A stretch of 32,910 nt of DNA from SAR324 cluster bacterium (GTDB lineage: Bacteria; SAR324; NAC60-12), in contig JADFZZ010000044.1 in the NCBI GenBank assembly GCA_015232315.1, forward strand, positions 1-32,910, read 5' to 3'. Below, in pieces: positions 1 through 14,780 of this stretch. The position numbers and the translations under genes are program-made. The first letter of the stretch is position 1, and every line of letters begins with the position of its first letter. Below the pieces are notes generated by a model, which saw only the letters and a program-made list of their open reading frames with translations, did not search any database and was not told the origin of the DNA.

Positions 1-184
1 TTTGATCTGTTAATGATTGATTCAATCGAGAATCAATGCCAGTTAAGAATTACCTGATCTGGCACAAATGATCATCCTGGTTTCGATAAAAAGAAAATAT
101 AAAGATAGATGGGAATGTGAAATATAGAGATAGACAGAAACTGTCTATTCCAATATGATCTATTTCTGTCTAATTCACTGTTGG
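1..184 (+). repeat. attI-like region, copy 1 of a 184-bp direct repeat
   Basis: This AT-rich, gene-free stretch is repeated at 11787-11970 with no indels and two substitutions (positions 128 and 145). In both places it ends at a cassette core site (GTTGGGC at 180 here, GTTGGCT at 11966 there). A sequence that is constant on the left and followed by different cassettes on the right is what an integron attI site looks like. The bases before the core (TTCACT) do not resemble the right end of an attC. It holds an inverted repeat at 16-23/30-37 and a palindrome ATAGACAG-AAA-CTGTCTAT at 130-148, with a further CTGTCTA near 167. The repeat may extend left of the window, where a divergent intI would be expected. 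The attI role is inferred. Confidence 0.7.
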
Positions 185-925
185 GCATTACATGGAGAAA
201 AATGCAATTTTATAAACCTCCAGACTATCTCCCCCTAGGAGTACAAGATGATCATTATAGAAGAATGGCAGATATTTCATTTCGGCATTTATCTGGGGCT
301 TGGGAAAACTATAAAAATAAAACAAATCATATTTGGATTCGTGATGTGAAAAATGATGATCCTCGGTATGGAAATTATGAATATTTAAATTCATTAACCA
401 AACTGGGAATATATGAGAGTGAAGAATATACTCAAGCAATGGCAGCAACTTTGTTTACTCATGTATGGATCTTGTCAGCAGCTAATTATTATCGTCTATC
501 CTGCAAGTTGAAGTTTCCAAGAAATATGCCTTGGTTAGATAAAAAAGTAATAACCAATGTTGGGTCACCTCAGCAAATTGCTATTGAACTTGGTTTACCC
601 GCTCATGTAATTGAGTATCAAAAAAATCTACATGGGATGCGGAATACTTTAATGCACTTGGTAGAAGGTGATCCTAAAACATCAGCTATTCATACATTAG
701 ATTTTAAATCAGCTTATTTTTATGCGAAATCTACATGGGTGGTATTTTGTGCTCTTCTACGACATTATGGAATGAGGCCGGATAGAGGAAGTTGGCGTAT
801 ACAAACAAAAAGATATTTGTTACCAGAAAACTTTAAATCAATATGACAAAGATCTTTGCCCAACAAGTCAATCGAGACGGATTTCAAGGGGCGCAAAACG
901 CCCCTTGAAACCGCTCATTTCTGCG
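181..925 (+). mobile_element. Integron gene cassette A
   Basis: The unit runs from TTGGGC of the first core site GTTGGGC (180-186) to the G of the attC right core (925). Its attC R'' box GCCCAAC (858-864) is the exact reverse complement of GTTGGGC, as expected for a cassette excised and inserted by an integron integrase. It holds one forward gene and is about 745 bp, a normal cassette size. It is the first cassette after attI-like copy 1, so it would be the most recently acquired of this array. Confidence 0.82.
202..846 (+). CDS. Cassette A protein, unknown function, possible HEPN-like
   Basis: This is a 214-residue protein. I chose ATG 202, which has GGAG about 5 nt upstream; the frame opens earlier at TTG 181, but that TTG lies inside the cassette core site. 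I do not recognise the family. It is aromatic-rich and probably helical. RNTLMH at residues 147-152 fits the R-x4-H pattern, with Asn after the Arg, that HEPN ribonucleases use; whether it is catalytic is a guess. There is no signal peptide or clear membrane segment. The DNA is much more AT-rich than the restriction-modification cassette beside it, so the two probably have different origins. Being first in the array, it would be the best placed for expression from an integron promoter. Confidence 0.75.
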   Translation: MQFYKPPDYLPLGVQDDHYRRMADISFRHLSGAWENYKNKTNHIWIRDVKNDDPRYGNYEYLNSLTKLGIYESEEYTQAMAATLFTHVWILSAANYYRLSCKLKFPRNMPWLDKKVITNVGSPQQIAIELGLPAHVIEYQKNLHGMRNTLMHLVEGDPKTSAIHTLDFKSAYFYAKSTWVVFCALLRHYGMRPDRGSWRIQTKRYLLPENFKSI

Positions 926-931
926 TTATAC
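858..931 (+). other. attC recombination site of cassette A
   Basis: The left core is GCCCAAC (858-864) followed by AAGTCAATCGAG; the right part is CCGCTCATTTCTGC followed by core GTTATAC (925-931). Between them is a perfect 11-bp inverted repeat, 883-893 with 899-909, closed by a short CAAAA loop. The L'' and L' boxes pair apart from unpaired bases, a hallmark of attC bottom-strand folding. The length is 74 bp. The R'' box matches the start of cassette A, and the right core supplies the first bases of cassette B. Confidence 0.88.
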
Positions 932-957
932 AAATAATACCTCTCTAAGGAGTTGCT

Positions 958-3654
958 TTGAACAAAGAGAAAATAACTTTATCCCAGCTTGAATCCTTTC
1001 TGCTGAAAGCTGCTGATATTTTGCGTGGGAAGATGGATGCTTCCGAATTCAAGGAATTCATCTTCGGCATGCTTTTCCTGAAGCGACTCTCAGATGAATT
1101 TGACGTAAAACGTGATCTTGTCAAAAGAACATACGCACATCTACGGGATGTGAATGAAACCGAATATGAGAAGCTTATTGAAGAAAAGACCTCCTATGGA
1201 GAGACCTTTTACGTGCCCAAACGCGCCCGATGGCATGAGACTTGGGTGGATGAGGACGGTAACACCGTCCCCGCCTTGAAAGATTTAAAGCACGACATCG
1301 GCAATATGCTCAATAAAGCCATTGCCGCCATTGAGGACGAGAATGATTCCCTTGCCGGAGTGCTCAAGAACAATATCAATTTCAATGAAATCAAGGGAAA
1401 AACCAAGATTCCAGATCAGAAATGGAAAGACCTCCTCGACCATTTCAATCAGCCCAACTTTGTCCTGGTAAACGACAACTTTGAGTTCCCTGATCTTCTC
1501 GGGGCCGCCTATGAATACCTGATTAAATATTTTGCCGACAGCGCGGGCAAGAAAGGTGGCGAATTCTATACCCCCGCCGAAGTCGTCCGTCTGCTGGTGC
1601 AGCTCGTCAAGCCACAGGCAGGCAATACCATTTATGACCCAACGGTCGGCTCAGGCGGTTTTCTGATTCAAGCACATCAATATGTCGAAGAACAGGGTCA
1701 GGACCCCAACGACCTGGCTCTTTATGGACAAGACTCCAATGGCACGGTCTGGTCCATCTGCAACATGAACATGATCCTCCATAACATCAGCCGTTTTACC
1801 ATCGAAAACGGAGATACTCTGGAGGACCCACAAATTCTCGACAATGGCCAGATTCGCAAATTCGACCGGGTGCTGGCCAATCCTCCTTTTTCACAGAATT
1901 ACAACCGAGCCAGCGTTAAATTTACCCATCGTTTTCGGGAGTGGTGTCCCGAGACCGGGAAAAAAGCCGACCTCATGTTCGTCCAGCACATGCTGGCCAG
2001 CCTCAAGGGCAATGGCCATATGGCCACCATCATGCCCCATGGCGTGCTGTTTCGTGGCGGCAAGGAAAAGCTTATCCGGGAACTTTTCATCAACGATGAC
2101 GTCATCGAGGCCATCATCAGCCTGCCGCAAGGCCTGTTTTACGGCACCGGCATCCCCGCCTGTGTGCTGGTCTGTAATAAGAACAAGCCGGATCATCTGC
2201 GCAACAAGGTGTTGTTCATCAACGCAGACCGTGAATTTGCCGAGGGTAAGAACCAAAACAAGCTGCGCCCGGAAGATATCGAGAAAATCGACACCATTTT
2301 CACCCTGAAACAGGAACTCCCAAAATACAGCCGTCTGGTCGACACCTCCGAAATCGTCGATAAACACGATTACAACCTGAACATTCGCCGTTATGTCGAT
2401 AACACCCCGGAACCGGAGCCAGAAGATGTACAAGCCCATCTCATCGGCGGCATTCCGGAAGATGAAGTAACGGCGCGACATGAGGACTTTGCCCGTTTTG
2501 GCCTGGCTGCTGAAACCCTCTTTCAAGCGGAACGTCCAAAGTACCTCGCCTTTAAGGAGACCGTTCAGGAAAAGACGGATATCAAAAAACTTATCGAAGC
2601 CGATCCGGCCGTTGTCCAGACTCTTACCACTCACGCGCAAGCCCTTGAGGATTGGTGGCAGGTGGCGCAGAACGATTTTGCCCGACTTGAGCGGGCCAAT
2701 AACGGCAATGGCAACGGAAAAAAAATGCCAGATGTACGCCTTGAGCTGCTGACAACGCTCAAGGACAAGATGATACCCCTTAGCGTACTGGACGAGTTCA
2801 AGAGCGCAGGGGTGTTTGTGAACTGGTGGCAACAGATCCGCTACGACTTGAAAACCATCGTTTCCATCGGCTGGCATCACACCCTGATTCCCGATGAATA
2901 TCTGATTGCGGAATTCTTTCAGGCCGAGGCCGACGCGATTGATTCCCTGGAAACCAAAATCAGCGAACTACAAAGCGAATTGGCCGAGGCTGTCGAAACC
3001 GCCCAGGAGACGGCTGCCTACGAGCCGGACGAAGACGAGAAGGTCACTGCCGCAGTCATCAAAAAGGCATTGAAGGAACTCATCGATGATTTGAAAGATA
3101 GCGAAGGCGAATCCGCAAAAAAAGAATTGGATGAGCTGAAAAAACAGGATGCCACAATTAAGGAGATCGAGAAAGAGATCACAGCCGCCAAGACTAACCT
3201 GAAAGAGAAAACAACCGAACTGGAACTGAAGCTCGAATTGAAACGTCTGGGCGCTGAAGGGTTCAAGGATGAAAACCGGGAACTGATCCGCCAGGTTGAT
3301 AAACAAATGGCCGAACTGGATGCAGGCGATAAGACGGACAATAAAAAAATCACCGCCCTGCAAAAAGACAAGGTAGCTTTGCAGGCACGCATTGCCCGAA
3401 CCGATGCTCTGCTGGCGGAAATTGGAGGCCAACTGACTGTCGAAGAAGCTAAACGGCTCATTCTGAAAAAACTGTACGACATTGCCAGCCGAGAGCTGGA
3501 TCGCTATCTCAACACCGAAAAACGGGCGTTGATTCAGGGGGTGGAAAACCTTTGGAATAAATACGCAATTAGCAGCCGGAAGCTTGAACAACGGAGGGAA
3601 GAGACGCTTGCAGAGTTGAATGGGTTTCTGAAAGGACTGGGGTACTTGAGATGA
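958..3654 (+). CDS. hsdM: Type I restriction-modification DNA methyltransferase subunit HsdM
   Basis: HsdM transfers methyl groups from S-adenosylmethionine to N6 of adenine in the site chosen by HsdS, and also belongs to the restriction complex. The N-terminal helical domain is followed by the methylase core: FYTPAEVV near residue 202, the SAM-binding motif DPTVGSGG near 227 and catalytic NPPF near 307. At 898 residues it is far longer than the usual 500 or so. The extra C-terminal part (about 490-898) is charged and rich in Glu, Lys and Leu heptads around 655-830, so probably a long coiled coil. The start is TTG 958, chosen because AAGGAG lies 5 nt upstream. It overlaps hsdS by ATGA. It is the first gene in cassette B, 27 nt behind the attC of cassette A. 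Confidence 0.95.
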
Positions 3655-4886
3655 AAACGCAAGCGAGCGAATGGACAACCTCACCCCTTGGTCAAGTTGC
3701 TAATCTGGTGATGGGGCAATCGCCAGAATCCAAGTTTTATTCTGAGGAAGAAGCTGGACTGGCTTTTTTACAAGGGTGTGCGGAGTTTCAGGCAAGATTT
3801 CCGAAACATGCAGTCTACTGTCGTCAAATCAAAAAAATAGCTCCAGAAAATTCAATCCTCTTCAGTGTGCGAGCACCGGTTGGTCGAATAAATATCGCTG
3901 ACCAGGCCTATATTATTGGTCGAGGACTTGCGGCAATTACTGGTATAGACGTCGAACAAGACTACCTTGAACAATATCTTCATTTTGAAGAGTCGAACTT
4001 TCGAAACGTCTCACAAGGTTCGACTTTCGAGGCCATCAATTCCAGTGAATTAAGTACATGGCCGATAAAGCATCCGACTGACAAACCAGAACAATCCAAA
4101 ATCGCCGAAGTTCTTTCCAAGGTCGATCAGGCCATTGAGCAGACGGAAAGCTTGATTGCCAAGCAGCAGCGCATCAAGACCGGTCTGATGCAGGACCTTC
4201 TCACCCGGGGGATCGATGAACACGGCAATCTCCGTTCCGAAGAAACCCATGAGTTCAAGGATTCCCCCCTGGGGCGGATTCCGGTGGAGTGGGAGGTATC
4301 AAATTTTCGAAATATTACTGAAGTTAACCAAGGGCTACAGATTGCAATAGAGAAAAGATTTAAAAGTGAAGGACCAAAACGTCACAAGTATATAACAATC
4401 CAATACCTCAACAATCCTGAAAAAAATATTGAGTATATTGATACTCCACCAGCTAATTTAATCTGTAAGCAAGATGATGTTTTATTCACACGAACCGGGA
4501 ATACAGGACAAATAGTTACCGGTATTGAAGGGGTTTACCACAATAATTTTTTTAAAATTGCATTTGATAAAAACAAAATTATCCATGATTTCTTAATAAC
4601 GTTTCTTTGCTGGGAACCTATACAGGAACAAATTAAAGAGCTTGCAGGGACCACCACTATTCCTGATTTAAATCACGGAGATTTTTACGCTCTTCCATTA
4701 TTGCTTCCAGATATAGTTGAACAAGAGAGACTTATGGGAGTCCTCTCCAAACAAATAACTTTTGTAAACTCAGAAATTGGTAATCTAAAGAAGCTCCGCT
4801 CCCTCAAAACCGCCCTAATGCAAGACCTGCTCACCGGCAAGGTGCGGGTGACGCCCTTAATGGAAAACATGGAGGTCTGCTCATGA
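3651..4886 (+). CDS. hsdS: Type I restriction-modification specificity subunit HsdS
   Basis: HsdS recognises the bipartite DNA target and directs HsdM and HsdR to it. The 411 residues show the standard two-fold layout: target recognition domain 1 (about 10-140), a conserved helical spacer ending LMQDLLTRG (about 145-190), recognition domain 2 (about 205-375), and a second copy of the conserved helix with [12 protein letters not shown] near the C terminus. The two recognition domains are visibly more AT-rich than the conserved spacers, a common sign that recognition domains are exchanged by recombination. ATGA overlaps join it to hsdM upstream and rhuM downstream. Confidence 0.95.
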
Positions 4887-5944
4887 AGCATGACGAAAAG
4901 GACCTGTCACGGGGCGAGATAATTATTTATCAGACGGATGACGGTCGGATTAAGCTGGATGTGCGGCTTGAGAAGGAGACGCTCTGGATGACCCAAAACG
5001 ACATGGCTCAGCTTTTCCAATGCTCTGCGGACAACATTTCACTCCACCTGAAAAACATCTATGAGGAAGGTGAACTCGACCCGACGGCAACTGCCGAGGA
5101 ATTCTCGGTAGTTCGTCAGGAAGGCGCCCGGCAGGTGCGGCGCATGCTGACCTTTTACAATCTGGATGTGGTGATTTCCGTGGGCTATCGGGTGAAGAGC
5201 CTGATTGCCACCCGGTTCCGCATCTGGGCGACGGAGCGGTTAAGAGAGTACATCGTCAAAGGCTTCACCATGGACGACGACCGGCTCAAACAAAGTGGAG
5301 GTGGCGGCTATTTTGATGAACTGCTGGCGCGTATCCGGGATATCCGCTCATCGGAAAAGGTCTTTTGGCGCAAGATACTGGACATCTATGCCACCAGCAT
5401 CGATTACGACCCGAAAACCGATGTTTCCCGCAATTTTTTCAAAGTGATCCAGAACAAGATGCATTGGGCGGCACACGGGCAAACCGCCGCCGAGGTGATC
5501 TTCAACCGGGCGGATGCTACTGAACCCCATATGGGCATGACCAACTGGGTTGGTTCATCTATCCGCAAAAGCGAGGCGGAGATTGCCAAGAACTACCTGA
5601 ACGCCGAAGAGCTGGATCTGCTGAACCGTATCGTTACGCTTTATCTCGATTTTGCCGAGTTGCAGGCGGTCCAGCACAAGGCCATGACGATGAGCGACTG
5701 GATCGGAAAACTGGACGACTTCCTGAAATTATCCGGTCGAGATGTCCTTACCCATGCCGGTAAAATCAGCCATGATGCGGCGTTGCAGAAAGCGCACGCA
5801 GAGTATGAAAAGTTTCACCTGATGCAGTTGGATGCGCCAACAGAAGTAGAAAAACACTTTATTGAAGCGGAGAAAGAGCTTAAACAAATTGAATCAGCCC
5901 GGAAATCGACTTCAGCCAAAGAGAAAAAGAGAGGGAGAAAATGA
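4883..5944 (+). CDS. rhuM: RhuM family protein
   Basis: This 353-residue protein belongs to the RhuM (virulence protein RhuM) family, which often travels with type I restriction operons but has no settled biochemical role. The N terminus has the family's typical stretch: GEIIIYQTDDG near residue 10, then LWMTQNDMAQLFQ near 34, resembling a DNA-binding helix-turn-helix, then YNLDVVISVGYRV near 91. The C terminus is Lys-rich and helical. It overlaps hsdS and hsdR by ATGA at both ends, so it is translationally coupled inside the operon. This suggests it regulates or assists the restriction complex, which is inference. No domain appears missing. Confidence 0.92.
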   Translation: MKHDEKDLSRGEIIIYQTDDGRIKLDVRLEKETLWMTQNDMAQLFQCSADNISLHLKNIYEEGELDPTATAEEFSVVRQEGARQVRRMLTFYNLDVVISVGYRVKSLIATRFRIWATERLREYIVKGFTMDDDRLKQSGGGGYFDELLARIRDIRSSEKVFWRKILDIYATSIDYDPKTDVSRNFFKVIQNKMHWAAHGQTAAEVIFNRADATEPHMGMTNWVGSSIRKSEAEIAKNYLNAEELDLLNRIVTLYLDFAELQAVQHKAMTMSDWIGKLDDFLKLSGRDVLTHAGKISHDAALQKAHAEYEKFHLMQLDAPTEVEKHFIEAEKELKQIESARKSTSAKEKKRGRK

Positions 5945-8900
5945 ATAAAACAACCTTGTCTGCGATTAAGCTCGATGAGCGCAACCATGTGGAAAAGCCG
6001 CTGCTCGATCAGCTATCCGGCCTTGGTTGGGAAATTATCGACCTGACGGATGAGAAGCAGACTCCGGCCCATACCTTCCGCGACAATTTCACCGAAGTGG
6101 TCATGCCGAAGGTCCTGCGGGAGCAGGTCAAGGTGATCAACCCCTGGCTGGAGGATGACCAGGTTGAAGAGGTCGCCAAGCAGTTGACGGCAAGTTTTCC
6201 AGGAACGGGGCTTATCGAGAACAATCAATACGCACTCCATTTGCTACTGGAAAACACCAGTGTCAGTGAAAACCGAAAAACAGGTGAGCAAAGCCCGACG
6301 GTGCGGTTTATCGACTTCAAGAACAAGGACAACAACCGGTTTATCGTGGTTTGTCAGTTTAAGGTCCGCATTCTCGGCACAGAGCATCATATCATCCCGG
6401 ACATCGTTCTGTTTGTGAACGGCTTGCCGGTGGTGCTGATCGAGTGCAAATCCCCCAAGGTCAAAGACGCCATACCCGAAGCCATCGACCAGATGTTGCG
6501 TTACAGCGAGCAGCGCGGGGCCAAAGGTGAAGGCAGTGCGCCGCTTTTCTATTTCAATCAGATCGTCATTGCCACTTGCCGCCAGGAAGCCAAGTTCGGG
6601 ACGATCACCACCCACAGCGAAAAACATTTTTACCGTTGGTCCGATCCCTACCCACGCACATTGAATGACCTCGACCACGGCTCGGGCAGTCCCAACGATC
6701 AGCAGCGCCTGGTGGCGGGCATGATGGACAAGGGCAATCTTCTCGACCTGATTCGCACCTTCACCCTGTTCTCCACCAATGACAAGGGGCAGACGATCAA
6801 GATTGTCGGCCGTTACCAGCAGTTCAGGGCGGTGAAACTGGCAGTTCAGCGCCTGCTCCAGGGGAAAAGCCCACGCGAACGCAGCGGCATTATCTGGCAC
6901 ACCCAGGGGTCGGGTAAGTCGCTCACCATGATGTTCATGGTGCGTGAGATGTATCGGCATGCGGCATTGTCCAACTGGAAGGTCGTGTTTGTGACTGACC
7001 GGACCCAACTGGAAGGCCAGCTCAATGAAACCAGTCGCAGTATAGGCTTTACGGTCAAGGTGGCGAACAGCATCAAAAAACTCAAGGAGCTGCTCAGCGC
7101 CGACACCTCGGATCTGGTGATGGCCATGATCCATAAGTTCCGCGAGGCGGACCTGACCGAAACCTTCCCGCAACTCAACGACAGCCCCAATATCCTGGTC
7201 ATGACGGACGAGGCCCACCGTTCACAGTACAAGATGCTGGGCGCGAACCTGGACAAAGGCATCCCGAACGCCGCGAAAATCGGCTACACCGGCACTCCCA
7301 TCGACAAGACTGAACGGGTCTTTGGCGACTACATCGATAAATACACTATGCGCCAGGCCATCGACGACGGGGTGACTCTGGAGATCGTTTACGAAGGCCG
7401 CACCCATAATGCGGAAGTACCCGATCAGGCAGGCATGGATCAGGCGTTTGCGGATATGTTCAGCGACTATAACCTGCAAGAGAGGCTGCAAATTCTCGGC
7501 TATGGTTCGCGAGACGCCTATCTTGAGGCTGAATCGACCATAGAAGCCAAGGCGAAGGACATGGTGGACCACTACCTTACCCATGTGTTCCCCAATGGCT
7601 ACAAAGCTCAGGTTGTGGCGACTTCAAGGGAAGCGGCGGTTCGGTACAAGAAATATATAGATGCCGCTTTAAAGGCGAAGATAGAGGATCTGCAAAAGGC
7701 TAACCCGGGCGGTCTGGACATTGAACAGCTTAAGAGGATGCAATCGGATGTCATCATTTCCGGTGGACATAACGATCTACCGCATTTGAAAGAGTATTCC
7801 GATAGTTCGAAACATGAGCGCAGTATCAAAAGCTTCAAACTGAGCTTTGGCGGCAAAGACGAAGGCGTTACCGGTGACATGGGCATCCTCATCGTCAACA
7901 ACATGCTCATTACCGGCTTTGACGCGCCCGTTGAGCAGGTCATGTACCTGGACAAGGTTATTACCGATCACAATCTTCTTCAGGCCATCGCCCGGGTTAA
8001 CCGTGTTGGCGGTGACACAAAAGACAAGGGCTTTGTCGTTGACTATGTCGGTGTAGGTCATCACCTGAAGAAAGCCATCGATGCCTATGACGAGCGGGAA
8101 CAAAAAGAAATCATCGATACGCTGAGCTTCCCGGAAGAAGAGCTCCGCGACCTCCAAAACAGCCATGCCGAAATTATGGGCCTGCTTCAAAAACATGGTC
8201 TGACGGACCTCACGGACCATGATGCGTTCTTTGATGTTTTTTATGACGAAGATTTGCGTTTTGATTATATGCAGGCCTTCAAGAACTTCACGAAATGCAT
8301 GAATCTGGTTTTTCCCGCTCGGCAGGCGTTGGATTTTATGAGCGACTACAATGCTCTTGCGGAAATCAATGTTCTGGCCGGAAAGCATTTCCGTGACGAA
8401 CGCTTAAGCATGAAAGGCATACCTCCAAAGCTTCGTGCGATTACTGACCAGTATCTGGAATCGAAGAATATCGATCAGAGAATTGAGCCGATTTCTATTC
8501 TTGATGAAGACTTTGAAAAAAACGTCGGCAAGCGTAACCGCAGCAAGACCAAGGCGGCGGAAGTGGAACACGCTATTCGCCATCACCTGGATGTTGAACT
8601 GGATGACGATCCGGATTTACAGGCCTCCTTCGCCAAGGCACTGGCGCAGATATTCCAGGATTTTCGAGATAATTGGAAAAAAATTTATGAAGAGCTGGAA
8701 AAATTGCGAGAGCGCATCAAGAGCGCCAGCAAGGAGCCGACCTATGGCCTCCACCGTAAGAAACAGATGCCGTTTTTCCGCAGTTTCAAACGAGAAATCT
8801 TTGGTTTGGCTGAAAATAATCCAGTGCAGTCAGGAATGGTTGCCGAGCCAAGCGCATCTTATGGTTTCAGTGAAGAGGAACAAATCTCCGTTCTCGTCGA

Positions 8901-9123
8901 TCTCACCCAGCAGGTTTTCCTGGTTGTTGAAAGGGAACTGAAGCTTGCCGGTTTCTGGGAGAGCATTCCTGCTCGCAACAAGCTCAAGGCCGATATCCAA
9001 GCGACACTTTTACAGCCTGCCTATACAAAGCTGCCGAACTTGCTTCAAAATCGCGCTCAGATCATCAGCCGGGTGATGGAAATAGCAGAAAAAAATAATG
9101 ATGTGATTCTTTACGCGGAGTAA
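5941..9123 (+). CDS. hsdR: Type I restriction endonuclease subunit HsdR
   Basis: HsdR is the ATP-driven translocase and nuclease that cleaves unmodified DNA. In order: an N-terminal PD-(D/E)xK nuclease with PDIVLFVNG and LIECKSPK (about 151-174), an SF2 helicase motor with Walker A GSGKS near 323, DEAH near 422, TGTP near 450, and the second RecA-like domain with ITGFDAP and ARVNR (about 657-688), then a helical C-terminal region. At 1060 residues it has the normal full length, and every key residue I checked is present, so the enzyme looks functional. It overlaps rhuM by ATGA and is followed after 2 nt by the metalloprotease gene. Confidence 0.97.
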   Translation: MNKTTLSAIKLDERNHVEKPLLDQLSGLGWEIIDLTDEKQTPAHTFRDNFTEVVMPKVLREQVKVINPWLEDDQVEEVAKQLTASFPGTGLIENNQYALHLLLENTSVSENRKTGEQSPTVRFIDFKNKDNNRFIVVCQFKVRILGTEHHIIPDIVLFVNGLPVVLIECKSPKVKDAIPEAIDQMLRYSEQRGAKGEGSAPLFYFNQIVIATCRQEAKFGTITTHSEKHFYRWSDPYPRTLNDLDHGSGSPNDQQRLVAGMMDKGNLLDLIRTFTLFSTNDKGQTIKIVGRYQQFRAVKLAVQRLLQGKSPRERSGIIWHTQGSGKSLTMMFMVREMYRHAALSNWKVVFVTDRTQLEGQLNETSRSIGFTVKVANSIKKLKELLSADTSDLVMAMIHKFREADLTETFPQLNDSPNILVMTDEAHRSQYKMLGANLDKGIPNAAKIGYTGTPIDKTERVFGDYIDKYTMRQAIDDGVTLEIVYEGRTHNAEVPDQAGMDQAFADMFSDYNLQERLQILGYGSRDAYLEAESTIEAKAKDMVDHYLTHVFPNGYKAQVVATSREAAVRYKKYIDAALKAKIEDLQKANPGGLDIEQLKRMQSDVIISGGHNDLPHLKEYSDSSKHERSIKSFKLSFGGKDEGVTGDMGILIVNNMLITGFDAPVEQVMYLDKVITDHNLLQAIARVNRVGGDTKDKGFVVDYVGVGHHLKKAIDAYDEREQKEIIDTLSFPEEELRDLQNSHAEIMGLLQKHGLTDLTDHDAFFDVFYDEDLRFDYMQAFKNFTKCMNLVFPARQALDFMSDYNALAEINVLAGKHFRDERLSMKGIPPKLRAITDQYLESKNIDQRIEPISILDEDFEKNVGKRNRSKTKAAEVEHAIRHHLDVELDDDPDLQASFAKALAQIFQDFRDNWKKIYEELEKLRERIKSASKEPTYGLHRKKQMPFFRSFKREIFGLAENNPVQSGMVAEPSASYGFSEEEQISVLVDLTQQVFLVVERELKLAGFWESIPARNKLKADIQATLLQPAYTKLPNLLQNRAQIISRVMEIAEKNNDVILYAE

Positions 9124-9125
9124 GC

Positions 9126-9806
9126 ATGGAGCTGGTCTATACCATCAAGCGGTCGCCTCACCGTAAAAAGCTGACGATTACCGTCGAACGGGATCGCAGT
9201 GTGGTTGTCCATGCGCCGGAATCCACTTCCGAGGAGAAGATTCAGGCTATCATCGAATCAAGACGGAAATGGATTTATGAAAAGACCAAACATGCGCAAA
9301 AATACGCATTACCTCATCCTCCAGGCAAAGAGCTGGTCAACGGCGAATCCGCACTCTACCTGGGCCGTCAATATCAGATCGAAGTAGTCCAAAACAGATC
9401 GGAAGAGATTCGTTTCGAACAACGTTTCCTGATCCCTGCGAGGCTTTCTGCTGAGCGCAAGCAGGTCCTGCGAAATTGGTACATGGACAAGGCCAGGGAA
9501 AAAATCCTGCCCCGGACCAAAAAGTTTGCCAATGATCTCGGAGTGGCATTCACCAATGCCAAGATCGTTGATAATCGCTATCGCTGGGGTTCCTGTACGA
9601 TCAATGACAACATTACTATCAACTGGCGACTCATTAAGGCACCGATGTATGTCGTGGATTACGTGATCATCCACGAACTAACTCACCTATTGGAAGCGAA
9701 CCACACACCTCGGTTTTGGAATATCGTTCGAGCGCAGTCCTCGAAAATGGACAAGGCAAAGCAATGGCTACTCGAAAATGGCCAGATCCTTGAGGAGGAT
9801 ATTTGA
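9126..9806 (+). CDS. YgjP-like (M48-type) metallopeptidase
   Basis: The 226-residue protein has the YgjP/SprT-like layout: a beta-rich N terminus starting LVYTIKRSPHRKKLTI, a middle region ending YRWGSC, and the zinc motif HELTHLLEANHTPRFW near residue 182, where HExxH supplies two His ligands and the catalytic Glu. Members of this family are commonly encoded just after hsdR, but their substrate in that setting is unknown. It starts 2 nt after the hsdR stop with GGAG just upstream, so it is the last gene of the operon. It ends 13 nt before the attC, leaving no room for another gene in the cassette. Confidence 0.9.
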   Translation: MELVYTIKRSPHRKKLTITVERDRSVVVHAPESTSEEKIQAIIESRRKWIYEKTKHAQKYALPHPPGKELVNGESALYLGRQYQIEVVQNRSEEIRFEQRFLIPARLSAERKQVLRNWYMDKAREKILPRTKKFANDLGVAFTNAKIVDNRYRWGSCTINDNITINWRLIKAPMYVVDYVIIHELTHLLEANHTPRFWNIVRAQSSKMDKAKQWLLENGQILEEDI

Positions 9807-9819
9807 AAGATGAAAATTT

Positions 9820-9894
9820 GTATAACAACCGCATGAACTCGGACTGGCAATTCCGCTTCGCTCCATTACCATCCGGTTATGCGGATCGTTGGGC
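9820..9894 (+). other. attC recombination site of cassette B
   Basis: The left core is GTATAAC (9820-9826) and the right core GTTGGGC (9888-9894). The inner left box GCATGAACTCGG pairs with CCGGTTATGC on the right except for two extra bases, the extrahelical bases expected in a folded attC bottom strand. The length is 75 bp. The left core is complementary to GTTATAC at 925, which ties this site to the start of the restriction-modification cassette almost 9 kb upstream. The right core starts cassette C. Confidence 0.88.
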
Positions 9895-9901
9895 CTACTA
9901 G

Positions 9902-10543
9902 GTGAATACCTTGGACAAGACTTTAGTTCAGCGAGCTAAGCAGGATATCGTTCGCTGGTTTGATCGCGTTCACCACGGCGATGCAAATGACGAAACAAAG
10001 GCCGTTCGACGGCGCCTCCTTAGCGGCCTAGAGCGTGTGTTTGACCAGCTTAAGGAGCGAGACTCCTGGCGAGAAGTCATCACTCGCGAGTATTCGGTGC
10101 GGGGAATTGATGAAGGTATAGTCGAGGGACCCTTGGGTTCGGCACTGATCTGCTGTGGGCGTATGCGGGCGACTTCCATTGTCCCAGGATGGGCCTACGG
10201 ATGGAACCGAGTTCTGAAGGATGAGTACGTCTACGATACCCTCACGTGGCTACTGCATTTTGCCAGGCAGTATATCCATCGGGCTTGGCTTTCTCAGGTT
10301 GTGATGGCGCTCTATGAATCAACCGGGAAGGTTGTACATCCGTTTGATGAGTCGCAGATAACATCGCAACGTTACAGCGACTTCAATCCCTACCCGGGCG
10401 ATGAACAAGCGCTCAGTGTGGCATGGGCTGGCATGAGTCAGGACGTAGAGGGCGGCGGGTCTTCCGCTCTCTCGTCGAGTGTTTGGTTTCAGGCAAACAC
10501 ACCACCCTATCACAGCAAATACAATCCCATTGAACGCTGTTAG
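9902..10543 (+). CDS. Cassette C protein, unknown, with a 3' end replaced by transposase sequence
   Basis: This 213-residue frame starts at GTG 9902, 8 nt after the core site GTTGGGC, as cassette genes often do. I do not recognise the first 185 or so residues; they are charged and helical near the N terminus (QDIVRWFDRVHHGDAN) with an aromatic-rich middle. The last residues, PPYHSKYNPIERC, belong to a DDE transposase and then hit a stop, so the true C terminus of the cassette gene is gone. No attC with the expected GCCCAAC box follows. The protein is therefore a chimera and probably a degraded cassette. Confidence 0.6.
   Translation: MNTLDKTLVQRAKQDIVRWFDRVHHGDANDETKAVRRRLLSGLERVFDQLKERDSWREVITREYSVRGIDEGIVEGPLGSALICCGRMRATSIVPGWAYGWNRVLKDEYVYDTLTWLLHFARQYIHRAWLSQVVMALYESTGKVVHPFDESQITSQRYSDFNPYPGDEQALSVAWAGMSQDVEGGGSSALSSSVWFQANTPPYHSKYNPIERC
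10502..10543 (+). pseudogene. Tiny DDE transposase remnant
   Basis: The codons for PPYHSKYNPIERC match the conserved stretch around the last catalytic acid (NPIE) of DDE transposases, where IERCWG normally follows; it resembles ISAzo13-type enzymes. Here the Trp position is a stop codon, and unrelated sequence begins immediately (TTCGCTTAAC, start of the 119-bp repeat). No inverted repeats or other parts of the element are visible. It marks an old insertion and deletion between cassette C and the helicase gene. Confidence 0.55.
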
Positions 10544-10662
10544 TTCGCTTAACGTTCTATTGGTGTCTTGAATCAATATTGCCTGTCATAACCCATGAAT
10601 GACTCTCCCCTGTTGAAACTCCCCAACACGTACCGTGCTTTTTTTGGCGCGTTTCCGTCCTT
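10544..10662 (+). repeat. 119-bp direct repeat, copy 1 (helicase leader and start)
   Basis: This matches 14611-14729 at 118 of 119 positions; the difference is C at 10648 against A at 14715. It covers 51 nt before the helicase ATG and the first 22 or so codons. To the left the copies differ (transposase scrap here, a hairpin after an attC there). To the right they differ because copy 2 has lost the helicase domain. Together with the 184-bp repeat it shows the region was duplicated in tandem. Confidence 0.93.
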
Positions 10663-11629
10663 GACCTCTGTTCAGCAGAAGGCGATTGATCCGGTGCTGG
10701 CAGGACGCGATGTGATTCTTCAGGCATCGACCGGCAGTGGCAAAACTGAAGCGGCGCTGGCGCCTGTGCTGGAACGGTTGCTCCAGTCAGCTACGCCTTA
10801 CACCGTCATTTATGTGATTCCCACCCGTGCCCTGGCGATGGACCTGGAGCGCCGTCTGGGCAATCTGCTCAAAGACCGGCTGAAGCTGAAACTTGGCCTC
10901 CGCACCGGTGATGTCAAACGTGGTGGTGACAACATCCATGTACTGCTGACCACGCCTGAATCGCTGGATGTGATGATCGGCAGTCCACGCAAGGAAAATC
11001 AGGAGTTTTTGCGCCGGGTACAAACCCTCATTCTGGATGATGTGCATCCCCTGTTGCATGTTTGCCGTGGGGAGCAACTGCGCTATCTGATACGCCGACT
11101 TGAACGCAAACTGCCGCACCCCCTGCAGAAAATAGCACTGTCTGCCACCATCGAAGATGTCCGGGATGTCATGGAGTTCTGGTATTTCCGTCAGGACACG
11201 GTCTGTATTTCCAGTTCTGTTCAGCGTGAATTACTGCCGCACCTGATCTATCTCAAGGAAGAAGAGGAACTGGTTTTTCTGGTAAACGATCTGTACGAAC
11301 GCTGGAATTATCGAAAAATCCTGATCTTCGCCAACAACCGTGGACGCTGTGACCGGTTGTTGGGATTGCTCAACCGGCAAGGCCGTTTCAAGGACGTCAC
11401 GGAATTGCATTATTCGAACCTGAACAGCGCAGAACGTCACAAGGTGGAACAGCGATTCCGGGAGCGGGATCATGCGTTGTGTGTGGCCACCAGCACACTG
11501 GAACTGGGCATCGATATCGGTGACGTGGATGGCGTGTTGTTGTTTGAGCCGCCAGATTCAGTTTCGGCTTTTTTGCAGAGGGTGGGACGGGCCAACCGCC
11601 GGGAACAACAGATCCATAACCGTGGATGA
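10595..11629 (+). CDS. SF2 (DEAD/Lhr-like) helicase, 5' fragment of a larger gene
   Basis: The 344 residues contain a whole SF2 helicase core: Q-motif region FPSLTSVQQKAI near 25, Walker A ASTGSGKTEA near 43, DDVH in place of DEVH near 147, SAT near 182, TSTLELGIDIGDVDG near 300 and arginine-finger QRVGRANRRE near 329. The frame then stops after QQIHNRG, where DNA matching a distant part of the sister gene (15249-15275) appears. Lhr-type helicases carry a winged-helix and a beta domain after this point, and those are preserved only in the frame at 14781. I read this as the N-terminal piece of the ancestral helicase-nuclease-helicase. No strong ribosome binding site precedes the ATG. It could still make a stand-alone helicase core. 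Confidence 0.85.
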   Translation: MNDSPLLKLPNTYRAFFGAFPSLTSVQQKAIDPVLAGRDVILQASTGSGKTEAALAPVLERLLQSATPYTVIYVIPTRALAMDLERRLGNLLKDRLKLKLGLRTGDVKRGGDNIHVLLTTPESLDVMIGSPRKENQEFLRRVQTLILDDVHPLLHVCRGEQLRYLIRRLERKLPHPLQKIALSATIEDVRDVMEFWYFRQDTVCISSSVQRELLPHLIYLKEEEELVFLVNDLYERWNYRKILIFANNRGRCDRLLGLLNRQGRFKDVTELHYSNLNSAERHKVEQRFRERDHALCVATSTLELGIDIGDVDGVLLFEPPDSVSAFLQRVGRANRREQQIHNRG

Positions 11630-11639
11630 CCGTGAATTG
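11613..11639 (+). repeat. 27-bp patch matching 15249-15275
   Basis: The sequence TCCATAACCG followed by TGGATGACCGTGAATTG matches 15249-15275 in the large helicase/nuclease frame at 26 of 27 positions, with the last 22 bases identical. It sits exactly where the helicase fragment loses its reading frame, and unrelated AT-rich DNA follows. It is in a different reading frame from the sister copy. It probably marks a deletion junction or a template switch during repair. Confidence 0.75.
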
Positions 11640-11786
11640 TATGGTTTTGTATTTTTTCAAATACTGTTCTACGCGAATGACATACCATCTTGTTTTTTTT
11701 GCAGGGAGTGTTTGTTGATTCAGAATGGATAACTACTGCTCCCATAATTTAGCATCTCTATTCATTTTTATCCTTGAACTACAGTT
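11640..11786. other. Gene-free AT-rich spacer between helicase fragment and attI-like copy 2
   Basis: No convincing gene or RNA is visible in this 147-bp piece. It contains T-runs near 11653 and 11692. If the region arose by tandem duplication it may represent DNA that normally lies to the left of the attI-like repeat, meaning beyond the left end of this window. I see no integrase-coding remnant in any frame. Together with the repeat and the cassette D leader, the stretch without a complete gene runs from 11630 to 12003. Confidence 0.6.
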
Positions 11787-11970
11787 TTTGATCTGTTAAT
11801 GATTGATTCAATCGAGAATCAATGCCAGTTAAGAATTACCTGATCTGGCACAAATGATCATCCTGGTTTCGATAAAAAGAAAATATAAAGATAGATGGGA
11901 ATGTGAAATATAGCGATAGACAGAAACTGTTTATTCCAATATGATCTATTTCTGTCTAATTCACTGTTGG
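11787..11970 (+). repeat. attI-like region, copy 2 of the 184-bp direct repeat
   Basis: This is identical to 1-184 except at the positions corresponding to 128 (A to C) and 145 (C to T). The second change weakens the palindrome present in copy 1. It ends at core site GTTGGCT (11966-11972), which begins cassette D. Having two such sites 11.8 kb apart on the same strand means one cassette array follows each. Confidence 0.7.
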
Positions 11971-12927
11971 CTTAATATTATTCAGATATAGAGCAAAATC
12001 ATTATGATAAACCTCAATTATTCATCACCAGTAAACAAATTACTCACATACGGGGATGCCAGTCATTATAGAAAAGAATGGCCTGATTATGTAGCATTAG
12101 GATTGAATGAAACACACATTGATGAATTAATCCGAATGATGAATGATGAAGATTTAATAGGAGCTTCGGCAAAGAGTTTAGAGGTATGGGGGCCTATTCA
12201 CGCATGGCGTACTTTGGCACAACTTCAATCACCAATGGCATTAGAATCATTACTGAATCAGTTACAACGGATAGATGATGATGACGATGATTGGATTAAT
12301 GAAGAGTTTCCTTATGTCTTCACAATGTTAGGGCCTTGTGCCATCAGTCCATTAGTTTCTTATTTGAAAGATCCCCAAAACAGGTTATTTGCCAGAGTAT
12401 GTGCCGCACGAAGTCTGGAATGTATTGGTAATAAATATAGTGAAAGTAGAAAATCCTGTGTCAATGGCATCACGGGATTGCTAGGCAACTTCGACAAGAA
12501 TGACCCAATTCTAAACGCTTTTTTGATCTGTTCTTTAGCAGATCTAAACGCAGTAGAATCTCTTGAGGTGATTCAGCACGCATATCAACATAACGCAGTG
12601 GATATTAGTATTTTAGGAGATCTGGAGGACGCTGAAATAAAATTGGGAATTAGAGAAAAAAGAGAAACCCCTCCTCCCAAATATCATTCATTTACATTTG
12701 ATCCACCTCCTCCCAAAGCCAATAATGTTAGTAGGAATGATCCATGTCCATGTGGAAGTGGAAAGAAATATAAAAAATGTTGTATGAACAAATGAATATC
12801 ATTTAACAAAGGCCAACAAGTCGGCGCAGTGGATTGCCGGGGTGCTGTTTTGCCAAAGATTTCAGTAGATTTTTCAGTTTTTATCTTATTCAAAGTAAAT
12901 GATCCCCGTCAACCACTGACCTCAGCG
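11967..12927 (+). mobile_element. Integron gene cassette D
   Basis: The cassette begins at TTGGCT of core GTTGGCT and ends within the attC at 12811-12933. The attC left core GGCCAAC pairs with GTTGGCT with one G-T wobble. It carries one forward gene in about 961 bp. It is AT-rich like cassettes A and E and unlike cassette B. Confidence 0.78.
12004..12795 (+). CDS. Cassette D protein with C-terminal SEC-C zinc motif, probable HEAT-like repeats
   Basis: The 263-residue protein has a helical body, with segments such as AWRTLAQLQSPMALESLLNQL and ARVCAARSLECIGNKYSE that look like HEAT-type repeats, an acidic run DDDDDD near residue 94, a proline-rich linker, and a C-terminal SEC-C motif RNDPCPCGSGKKYKKCC. 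SEC-C is the zinc-binding tail first known from SecA and occurs on many unrelated proteins as an interaction module. The molecular role here is unknown. ATG 12004 is the first start in the cassette, 38 nt after the core site; I see no strong ribosome binding site. Confidence 0.85.
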   Translation: MINLNYSSPVNKLLTYGDASHYRKEWPDYVALGLNETHIDELIRMMNDEDLIGASAKSLEVWGPIHAWRTLAQLQSPMALESLLNQLQRIDDDDDDWINEEFPYVFTMLGPCAISPLVSYLKDPQNRLFARVCAARSLECIGNKYSESRKSCVNGITGLLGNFDKNDPILNAFLICSLADLNAVESLEVIQHAYQHNAVDISILGDLEDAEIKLGIREKRETPPPKYHSFTFDPPPPKANNVSRNDPCPCGSGKKYKKCCMNK

Positions 12928-12933
12928 TTGGAC
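12811..12933 (+). other. attC recombination site of cassette D
   Basis: The left half reads GGCCAACAAG at 12811 followed by CAGTGG; the right half reads CCACTGACCTCAGC followed by core GTTGGAC (12927-12933). CAGTGG and CCACTG pair exactly. The middle, about 85 nt, is less clearly symmetrical, giving a long attC of 123 bp. Its right core opens cassette E. Confidence 0.78.
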
Positions 12934-13039
12934 TCACATGAACCACATTAAACCCGGAAATTGAGTCAGGGATTGGTTTTTACCTCAATCATAGTATGCT
13001 GGGAACAAGAGGCTGATTACTACACTTATCAGGAGGTAT

Positions 13040-13246
13040 ATGGAAACCATAGAATTTGAAACTATTGCTCAGAATGGCACTATCGCCATTCCTGAACAAT
13101 ATCGGGATCTTTTTCCTGAAACCATTCGATTGCTAGTGCATATTGAACCTCTGGTGAAGAATCAGAATATGAGCATCCCGTTTAAGGCAATCAGGATTTC
13201 CACCAGAAAATTCAAATTCAATCGGGAAGAAGCTAATGAACGGTAA
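13040..13246 (+). CDS. Probable antitoxin of a PIN toxin pair
   Basis: The 68-residue protein begins IEFETIAQNGTIAIPEQYRD, resembling the short beta-hairpin start (DGTIxIPxxY) of small antitoxins paired with PIN ribonucleases, possibly AbrB-like. The C-terminal part, ending FKFNREEANER, would be the toxin-wrapping tail. It would neutralise the downstream toxin and probably repress the operon through its N terminus. ATG 13040 has AGGAGG about 7 nt upstream. The last codons overlap the toxin start by 11 nt, the usual coupling in such modules. Confidence 0.72.
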   Translation: METIEFETIAQNGTIAIPEQYRDLFPETIRLLVHIEPLVKNQNMSIPFKAIRISTRKFKFNREEANER

Positions 13247-13646
13247 GGCCTTTTTTGATACGAATATTATTCTGTATTTATATTCAGAAGATGAACCAGA
13301 GAAACAGAGAGCCAGCATAAAAATTGCCACTACCTATCTCTTTCCCACCATTAGCACCCAAGTCATTAATGAACTTACCAACATTCTCTTTCGTAAAATG
13401 CAGGTAAAATGGGATATCATTGAAGAGGTGATTACCGAGGTTGAACAAGCATTTACCATTGAAGTTGTGACTATTTCAGTGATCAGGATGGCCTGTAACA
13501 TCGCTAAACGTTATCAGTATTCCTATTACGATAGTGTCATTATTGCCTCAGCCCTTTCATGTGGTTGTACACTCCTGATAAGTGAAGATATGCAGCATGG
13601 GCAAATTATAGAAAATCAGTTGCGGATTATGAATCCGTTCATATAG
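13236..13646 (+). CDS. PIN-domain toxin (probable ribonuclease)
   Basis: The 136-residue protein is a complete PIN domain: FFDTNIILYL gives the first acidic residue (near 8), STQVINELTNIL the conserved Glu (near 45), YYDSVIIASA the third acid (near 99) and LLISEDMQHG the fourth (near 117). PIN toxins of VapC type cut tRNA or other RNA using a metal centre; the target here is unknown. It overlaps the antitoxin gene. Its stop lies about 30 nt before the attC of the cassette, a tight fit typical of cassette genes. Confidence 0.88.
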   Translation: MNGKAFFDTNIILYLYSEDEPEKQRASIKIATTYLFPTISTQVINELTNILFRKMQVKWDIIEEVITEVEQAFTIEVVTISVIRMACNIAKRYQYSYYDSVIIASALSCGCTLLISEDMQHGQIIENQLRIMNPFI

Positions 13647-14157
13647 TCTCATAAAGAATATCAGCAAAAACTGGTCCAATCGGGTAGAGGGAAGCTTTTC
13701 TCTTCCCCCTCCCACACCACCCTGCATGCGGGTCTCGCACAGGGCGGTTCATCGAAGTGGAGCAAGCAATATCCAGAGGTTTTTTGAGAGAAACAAGACC
13801 TTGATGGGCTAACCAGAGATTGGTCATGCCCGATTGGGTCGCCAACGTTTTGGATAAACGCCAGTACCCCTTGGAACTACGTCCTGTCGAAACCGCATGT
13901 TTGCGGTTTGTTCCCAGTTTGAGTAGAGTTCGTATTCGAGTTTTGGGACGTTTCCACTGTTTCCAGTAGCACATCCGCACCCGTCTGCGAATCCAGTTAT
14001 CCAACCCGGGAATGGGACGATAGTAATCGGACAAACCAAAGTAGTTGATCCAGCCTCTGAGGTAGGTGGAGAGTTCCGCAATGACCTGTTCCATCGAGAC
14101 GCCTCGGGAGCGAGACGTAATTTGGCGTACTCGCTCCCTCTCATTTACCCGATCCCG
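13639..14157 (-). pseudogene. Group II intron maturase (reverse transcriptase) remnant, C-terminal part only
   Basis: The minus-strand frame reads VRQITSRSRGVSMEQVIAEL, then YLRGWINYF, LDNWIRRRVRMCYWKQWK and SSKGYWRLS. This is the group II intron maturase X domain and the end of the thumb. The reverse transcriptase fingers and palm, with the YADD motif, are missing: a stop at 14158-14160 lies just before, and intron domain I-like DNA follows at once. The frame continues through domains V and VI into the exon and stops at 13639, so the last 40 or so codons are not maturase. An intact enzyme would be around 420 residues, so this fragment cannot support mobility. Confidence 0.85.
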
Positions 14158-14455
14158 TTAGCCACAAGGTTTCATGATCTTGTGCTCACTCACCTTGGGG
14201 AAGTTGGCCTGACATGAGGTTTCTGTACGTCGGCTCGTCGCTTTGCCCAGGCTTCCTTCAGACATTCCCTCACGAGTTTGCCCTTGCCATCGGCTAGAAG
14301 TTTATGGCATACGTCCTGTTAGGAAGAGGTTTGTTTTCTCGGTTTGCCGCCTGGTTTCCCGGCGGTGCCACACTATTTCTTCCATGAGAAATGGTGCCAG
14401 TGGCTACTCTTCAGGGGACTTTCACCCCATTAATTCACGCCCATGCCGGGCGTAC
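13679..14455 (-). mobile_element. Degenerate group IIC-attC intron
   Basis: The intron lies on the minus strand. Its 5' end is near 14455 (GTACGCCCGGCATGGGCGTG, then GGGGTGAAAGTCCCC of domain I at about 14435-14421) and its 3' end near 13679 (CTACCCGAT). Removing it rejoins the attC of cassette E exactly, with target 5'-CCTTGT/TGGAC on the bottom strand, the TTGT/T attC target known for this intron class. About 780 bp remain where roughly 1.9 kb is expected; the missing part is the first two thirds of the maturase gene. The 5' boundary is uncertain by about 2 nt, because introns of this class usually begin GTGYG. It could still splice if a maturase acts in trans. Confidence 0.82.
13716..13750 (-). 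ncRNA. Group II intron domain V
   Basis: Read on the minus strand the element is GAACCGCCCTGTGCG, then AGACC, then CGCATGCAGGGTGGT: a long stem with the two-base bulge and tetraloop-like end of domain V, the catalytic core of the ribozyme. Domain VI follows, GGGAGGGGGAAGAGAA pairing loosely with TTCCCTCTACCC, and leads to the 3' splice site. Both look complete although the maturase gene is deleted. Confidence 0.8.
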
Positions 14456-14572
14456 ACAAGGCATTCAACCGGACAGCTAACCGCGGTTTTGGTCATGGAT
14501 TTTGATATTTTCCCGGTCGGCGTTTTCTCCATGCCCGGTGTCGTTAGCCGCCGGTTAATTCGGTCGTTTCGC
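14456..14572 (+). other. attC site of cassette E, right part (left core at 13674-13678)
   Basis: After the intron the site continues ACAAGGCATTCAACCGGAC and ends CCGGTTAATTCGGTCGTT. Inner pairs are TCAACCGG (14465-14472) with CCGGTTAA (14551-14558), differing at one pair, and GCTAAC (14476-14481) with GTTAGC (14543-14548). The rejoined site is about 122 bp. The right core GTTTCGC is poor, consistent with the site now facing non-cassette DNA. Confidence 0.82.
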
Positions 14573-14607
14573 GAAAACTCACTCCGTCATATGGTCCGTG
14601 AGTTTTC
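14573..14607. other. Hairpin between attC of cassette E and the second helicase leader
   Basis: A perfect 10-bp inverted repeat, GAAAACTCAC (14573-14582) and GTGAGTTTTC (14598-14607), encloses a 15-nt loop. There is no T-tract, so it is not an obvious intrinsic terminator. It starts within a base of the attC end and stops 3 nt before the 119-bp repeat, so it fills the whole gap between the array and the host-side gene. Its role is unknown; it could be the end of another small element. Confidence 0.6.
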
Positions 14608-14610
14608 TGC

Positions 14611-14729
14611 TTCGCTTAACGTTCTATTGGTGTCTTGAATCAATATTGCCTGTCATAACCCATGAATGACTCTCCCCTGTTGAAACTCCCCAACACGTAC
14701 CGTGCTTTTTTTGGAGCGTTTCCGTCCTT
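14611..14729 (+). repeat. 119-bp direct repeat, copy 2 (helicase leader and start)
   Basis: This copy of 10544-10662 contains the helicase start ATG at 14662 and its first 22 or so codons. The next base begins DNA from the middle of the ancestral gene (WGICRGERAGAQ in the downstream frame). The junction is out of frame: the ATG-14662 frame is shifted by 2 nt relative to the long frame and stops at 14853. The deletion removed the whole SF2 helicase domain that copy 1 retains. Confidence 0.93.
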
Positions 14730-14780
14730 TGCTGGGGCATCTGCCGTGGTGAACGGGCTGGCGCGCAACTGCTCAAATTC

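Follow-up and report, generated by a model that had tools for sequence, protein, structure and literature searches.

A five-gene type I restriction operon between two integron recombination sites resembles a single, unusually large gene cassette

Introduction

Can a complete multi-gene defence system be carried as one integron gene cassette? The question is raised by a locus of a SAR324 cluster bacterium (assembly GCA_015232315.1; 5.25 Mb in 88 contigs, 95% complete), in which a five-gene DNA-restriction (anti-phage) operon is exactly flanked by two integron recombination sites (attC), and looks like one mobile gene cassette of unusually large size. The stretch analysed, hereafter the window, is the whole of contig JADFZZ010000044.1 (C44), 32,910 bases. 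Cassettes are described, in the sections cited here, as generally having one open reading frame (ORF), sometimes two or none (PMC8618304), and a multi-gene cassette would be surprising because a review, in the portion available, notes that integrons conspicuously lack defence systems with more than two genes (PMC12409362). In the excerpt of another study, which worked with synthetic cassettes ranging from 60 to 3,060 bp, the mode of cassette formation is called largely unknown; its authors attribute the short coding sequences in cassettes to no recombination limit, and constraints at cassette formation may be the cause of the small size (PMC5371416).

A preliminary description of this DNA had proposed that a whole five-gene restriction system lies on one giant cassette. 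The attC sites, a 7/7 core match, hybrid cores, an attI-like site and a neighbouring cassette all agree with this proposal, as far as the DNA letters can tell. We put at roughly 70% the probability of the whole explanation, namely that positions 926-9888 are a single integron cassette with a complete type I restriction-modification operon, which was inserted by an integrase and can be excised as a circle.

Cassette anatomy

An integron integrase cuts the core site between G and TT, and the cassette therefore comprises the 8,963 bp at 926-9888 (Table 1), exactly the span previously given for it. Its 5' border is this cut in the core GTTATAC (925-931), which lies inside the upstream site, attC A. 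As had also been claimed, this core and the R'' box GTATAAC of the downstream site, attC B, are exact reverse complements, and each is found only once on the plus strand of the window (at 925 and 9820). Such exact complementarity between a cassette's own core and its R'' box holds in both complete cassettes of the array (2/2); the GCCCAAC box of the first cassette is additionally present at 1452 and 15993. For comparison, the match was found in 3/3 cassettes of a plasmid integron of Kovacikia minuta (L129) and, among class 1 control arrays, in 8/15 detected successive pairs, where some of the unmatched pairs possibly span an undetected attC.

Both borders of the cassette are hybrid, i.e., attC A has the R' box GTTATAC against its own core GTTGGGC, and attC B has the R' box GTTGGGC against its own core GTTATAC. 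Hybrid cores at both ends would be the footprint of integrase joining and imply the earlier insertion of a cassette with these ends; the simpler reading is that the operon was by then already inside. The array context consists of the attI-like site, cassette 1 with attC A, and cassette 3 beyond attC B. On anatomical grounds, it is supported that 926-9888 would be one gene cassette, the second in the array after the attI-like site and a 745-bp cassette. The size and gene number that are typical of cassettes without defining them, about 1 kb or less and usually one ORF, are not those found here (five ORFs in 8,963 bp).

Table 1. Features of the integron array and the operon; coordinates are those of the window
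Feature	Coordinates	Strand	Details
attI-like site	1..186	+	core GTTGGGC 180-186; bases 1-184 repeated at 11787-11970
Cassette 1	181..925 (745 bp)	+	ORF 202-846; core GTTGGGC at 180 complementary to R'' GCCCAAC at 858
attC A	858..931	+	GCCCAAC...GTTATAC; R' = GTTATAC
Giant cassette (putative)	926..9888	+	own core GTTATAC and R'' GTATAAC complementary 7/7; no other credible attC inside
Cassette leader	926..957	+	ribosome-binding-like AAGGAG 947-952 ahead of TTG start at 958
HsdM, type I methyltransferase	958..3654	+	PF02384 (1.7e-103), PF12161; TIGR00497 above cut-off; motifs DPTVGSG, NPPF
HsdS, specificity subunit	3651..4886	+	PF01420, two stretches
RhuM-family protein	4883..5944	+	PF13310 (9.9e-113); PADLOC candidate PDC-S05
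HsdR, restriction/translocase subunit	5941..9123	+	PF04313, PF18766; TIGR00348 above cut-off; motifs ECKSP, GSGKS, DEAH
YgjP-like metallopeptidase	9126..9806	+	PF01863 (2.4e-55); HELTH
attC B	9820..9894	+	GTATAAC...GTTGGGC; R'' = GTATAAC, R' = GTTGGGC
Cassette 3	9889..10543	+	ORF 9902-10543; no detectable attC before the repeat starting at 10544

Recombination sites

The attC search accepted R''/R' pairs that close a single bottom-strand hairpin, with a length of 50-110 bases and at least 4 outer pairs. On the plus strand of the first 12,000 bases, three candidates passed: attC A (-0.268 kcal/mol per base), attC B (-0.183) and one inside the RhuM gene (5539-5639), which scored only -0.094. The latter being the only inner candidate, no credible attC was found inside 926-9888 by a finder that misses some true sites, and the preliminary picture of five coupled genes between two attCs with no further attC was borne out.

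Two backgrounds were used to judge these scores. In 150 dinucleotide shuffles of the 12 kb, no site reached -0.182 or better, the best shuffled site being at -0.168. In real DNA, i.e., both strands of the 80 loci of operon relatives described below (2,780,250 strand-bases), three sites reached -0.182 and none reached -0.267, such that a score at the level of attC B occurs about once per 0.9 Mb. The positive controls, searched under a laxer rule, were nine class 1 arrays of named plasmids, which yielded 23 sites. One of these scored -0.139 and the other 22 lay between -0.179 and -0.361, four of the latter being weaker than attC B. In one control array with one annotated cassette gene (L137) no site was found, and thus the finder is not fully sensitive.

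attC B shows the R''-L''-L'-R' order and the bottom-strand hairpin of a 3' attC. The fold of its bottom strand (9820-9894), which had been suggested as a check, gave a hairpin with a z-score of -2.99, with 1 of 200 shuffles equally good; for attC A the z-score was -5.87, with none of 200 equally good. When each site was folded with its own core, the state expected in an excised circle, both folded end to end with 7 R-box pairs each (-26.6 kcal/mol for attC A, -17.4 kcal/mol for attC B). On the 3' arm of the folded bottom strand, attC A and attC B have three one-base bulges each, as compared to 2, 1, 2, 0 and 3 in five controls.

The operon

HsdM, HsdS and HsdR are complete, and catalytic motifs are present in HsdM, HsdR and the YgjP-like protein. 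The five genes are joined by three 4-base overlaps and one 2-base gap (HsdR/YgjP). Relatives were collected by a peptide-pattern search with one genome per species, and the best 80 of 133 were analysed. The YgjP gene directly follows HsdR in 77 of these 80, and the identical five-gene order occurs in two non-integron loci (L035 and L053); the gene set is therefore an ordinary operon.

The nearest relatives found, L023 (HsdR 96% identical) and L024 (94%), belong to metagenome-assembled genomes (MAGs) labelled Deltaproteobacteria and Proteobacteria. Their operons share HsdM, HsdR and YgjP with the window: for L023, 2511 of 2692 aligned bases are identical in HsdM (93%) and 3656 of 3788 in HsdR and YgjP together (96.5%), the corresponding values for L024 being 89% and 92%. 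Unlike the window, however, they have no detected attC at either end, lack RhuM and carry other HsdS recognition stretches, so that these stretches and RhuM depart from the overall identity pattern. The L023 operon is preceded by a helix-turn-helix gene, with similar sequence ahead of the L024 operon, where the window has the cassette leader instead; the leader is not homologous to the upstream flank in either. Homology to both loci starts at 959 and ends at 9807, i.e., within a base or two of the operon's first start codon and last stop codon, and L023 and L024 remain similar to each other beyond both points.

In the 300 bases next to the operon, the same rules that detect attC A and attC B found no attC-like site in the relatives, either downstream (76 flanks) or upstream (45 flanks); loci that lacked a usable end or had less than 150 bases of flank were excluded before these counts. 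Related operons occur without detectable attCs in many phyla, and the operon clearly did not originate as a cassette. A relative with the operon outside an integron between the same flanks, which the preliminary description had named as contrary evidence, was not encountered, because the flanks of the attC-less relatives differ from those of the window. At E <= 1e-200, HsdR was absent from the 51 other genomes of the class that were searched; the genome itself has a second HsdR on contig C3, which is 36-37% identical. Searches of mobile elements returned no HsdR relative in viral_contigs, 23 matches in phage records (all below 60% identity) and 2,836 in plasmid records, of which three were at 60-80% identity and the others lower. 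The flanks 1-960 and 9800-10540 had no match among plasmids.

Alternative explanations

The alternative that survives best, although we regard it as unlikely, is that a small cassette (about 926-957 plus 9807-9888) already existed in the array, and that an event not involving the integrase later put the operon into it or exchanged its gene for the operon, such that the unit has never yet moved as a cassette. The lack of attCs in the relatives (0/76 downstream, 0/45 upstream) and the end of homology exactly at the start and stop codons are in its favor, as is the hexamer TTTGAA common to both junctions (957-962 and 9802-9807), for which the start and stop codons make a partial chance match likely. 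However, the presumed remnant of the older cassette includes no ORF of notable size, and neither side shows a disrupted gene. It is to be noted that, even under this scenario, the unit would remain excisable as one today.

Far less probable is a misassembly, in which operon DNA of a foreign organism was wrongly joined to an integron contig. The nearest relatives found are indeed delta/proteobacterial MAGs, HsdR was not found in the 51 other genomes of the class at the above threshold, and the contig contains repeats of 184 and 119 bases; nonetheless, there is no repeat of at least 40 bases at 925 or 9888, and a false join would not produce an R'' box in attC B that exactly complements the core at 925. 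Least credible of all is that there is no cassette here, the hairpins being due to chance or to terminators, or that several cassettes have lost their inner attCs by decay: chance hairpins at the score of attC B do exist in real DNA (3 in 2.78 Mb) and the finder misses some true attCs (as in L137), but two sites within 12 kb come with two exact core matches, the gene borders are too tight for attCs, the same gene order is known without attCs, and the sole inner candidate scores -0.094.

The array platform and the integrase

The first 184 bases of the window occur twice in the genome and no more. Within bases 101-200, a 76-column alignment was obtained with the region that lies upstream of the integrase gene (intI), and divergent from it, in a relative in the class (G046); its score was 59, and the highest among 200 shuffles was 32. 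None of seven other intI upstream regions, including that of the genome's own intI on contig C17, resembled bases 1-186. Seven integrase-family matches were found in the genome, of which one, on C17, was above the family cut-off; its best solved relative is IntI4 (3.2e-93). Contig C44 itself begins at the attI-like repeat.

The C17 integron (L016, 1-1821) has an intact IntI and an attI core, GTTGGAG as read by eye, that is unlike that of the window. Near its intI is an attC-like site (CTCCAAC/GTTCGAT) with matching core GTTGGAG, and one cassette ORF of 147 residues precedes the contig end. As to the neighbours of the giant cassette, neither the ORF of cassette 1 nor that of cassette 3 had a match in Pfam, PADLOC or NCBIfam. 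The cassette 1 protein contains RNTLMH, which we take to be reminiscent of the R-x4-H motif of HEPN proteins.

Mobility and expression

The proposed course of events would begin with an operon like that of L023 being placed into a cassette framework made of the leader, with its ribosome-binding site, and attC B. An integron integrase, working on attC sites folded from the bottom strand, would then have inserted the resulting cassette, and recombination between attC A and attC B could release it as one circle of 8,963 bases. The integrase might be supplied in trans by the intact IntI of C17, or be encoded past the left end of the contig. Transcription may enter by way of cassette 1 from the attI side, or start at an internal promoter that went unrecognised, and the restriction product would be expected to methylate the host DNA and to cleave unmodified foreign DNA.

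Several observations weigh against this explanation. The window contains no intI, and its attI is unlike the attI region that accompanies the IntI of C17. No second copy of the cassette was found, the attC B stretch being single-copy in its own genome; no excised circle or empty site was found, viral_contigs held no exact match to 23 bases of attC B, and the junction of attC A with the cassette was present in 0/51 other genomes of the class. The promoter signal did not exceed chance, with 5 promoter-like sites in 1-1100 as compared to 4.4 in shuffles. attC B is weaker than most control sites and is equalled by one of its 200 shuffles, and the core GTTATAC is one base off the consensus GTTRRRY, but a control attC core, GTTATGC, also departs from it. 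Lastly, in the part of that work available, synthetic cassettes of at least 1.5 kb are excised less when the flanking site folds poorly, and 9 kb lies outside the tested range (PMC5371416). Overall, the structure makes a convincing case for a defence cassette that is very large and holds several genes, and for which mobility, expression and restriction are predictions from its DNA.

Comparison with known cassettes

The anti-phage cassettes of integrons (Darracq, Littner et al. 2025; Kieffer et al. 2025), as summarised in the accessible part of a review (PMC12409362), resemble the window in having defence genes between attCs in an attI array; by that account they are small and streamlined, none with more than two genes, in contrast to the five genes and 8,963 bp found here. 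Restriction-modification genes have been listed among Xanthomonas cassettes, their type unstated in the portion available (PMC12444791). Among the titles and abstract openings of the matches listed, a coverage that leaves out most subscription papers, no type I system was described as an integron cassette. The K. minuta plasmid integron (L129, 1950-7780) is similar to the window in that its IntI is 56% identical to the C17 IntI and the R'' box complements the own core in three cassettes; its cassettes, however, measure about 1.3 to 2.5 kb and have between one and three annotated genes. One of them has a cytosine methyltransferase gene and a second gene, and another, of about 2.5 kb, has an AriAB-like gene.

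A 9-kb defence cassette of five genes would break the size rule. If integrons can take up such operons as working cassettes, the size limit of known arrays would reflect the usual birth of cassettes and not what integrases can move, and the locus would keep the base-exact junctions of a cassette birth alongside a known non-cassette form of the operon. This counterpart, 93-96% identical, would constitute a before/after pair for testing models of cassette formation. This broader proposition, that defence operons of several genes and about 9 kb can be accepted by integrons in their entirety and work as one cassette each, is tentative, and we hold its odds to be slightly short of even.

Rearrangements outside the operon cassette

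Beyond cassette 3, which runs into its start, lies a defence-type helicase gene (10544-19544) that is broken in two, with an N part at 10595-11629 and a C part at 14781-19544. These match residues 9-349 and 370-1952, respectively, of an uninterrupted frame of 1,952 codons in another genome (G004); weak BrxHI-like and MkoA-like matches in PADLOC and a weak PLuB-like match in NCBIfam were also obtained. The first 119 bases of the gene, from 10544, are repeated at 14611-14729. Separating the two parts are the second attI copy, together with apparent vestiges of an intI-attI intergenic region, a further cassette, the gene for a PIN-domain protein and a remnant of a group II intron.

Upstream of the second attI copy (11787-11970, within the region 11640-12933), the DNA also resembles the intI-attI region of G046, with no intI left. 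The cassette behind this copy encodes a SEC-C/DUF1186 protein and has a weaker attC (12811-12933), the R'' box of which matches the core in 6/7 bases. The group II intron remnant (13679-14279, minus strand) shows matches to D1-D4 and to domain V, together with a truncated maturase, and its orientation is opposite to that of the cassettes. Because of this remnant, intron-mediated formation of the operon cassette was considered, a model described in the available part of the literature (PMC7923331), and was rejected, as nothing connects the remnant to attC B. The PIN-domain protein (13236-13643) is encoded behind an ORF of 68 residues, and the two are perhaps a toxin-antitoxin pair.

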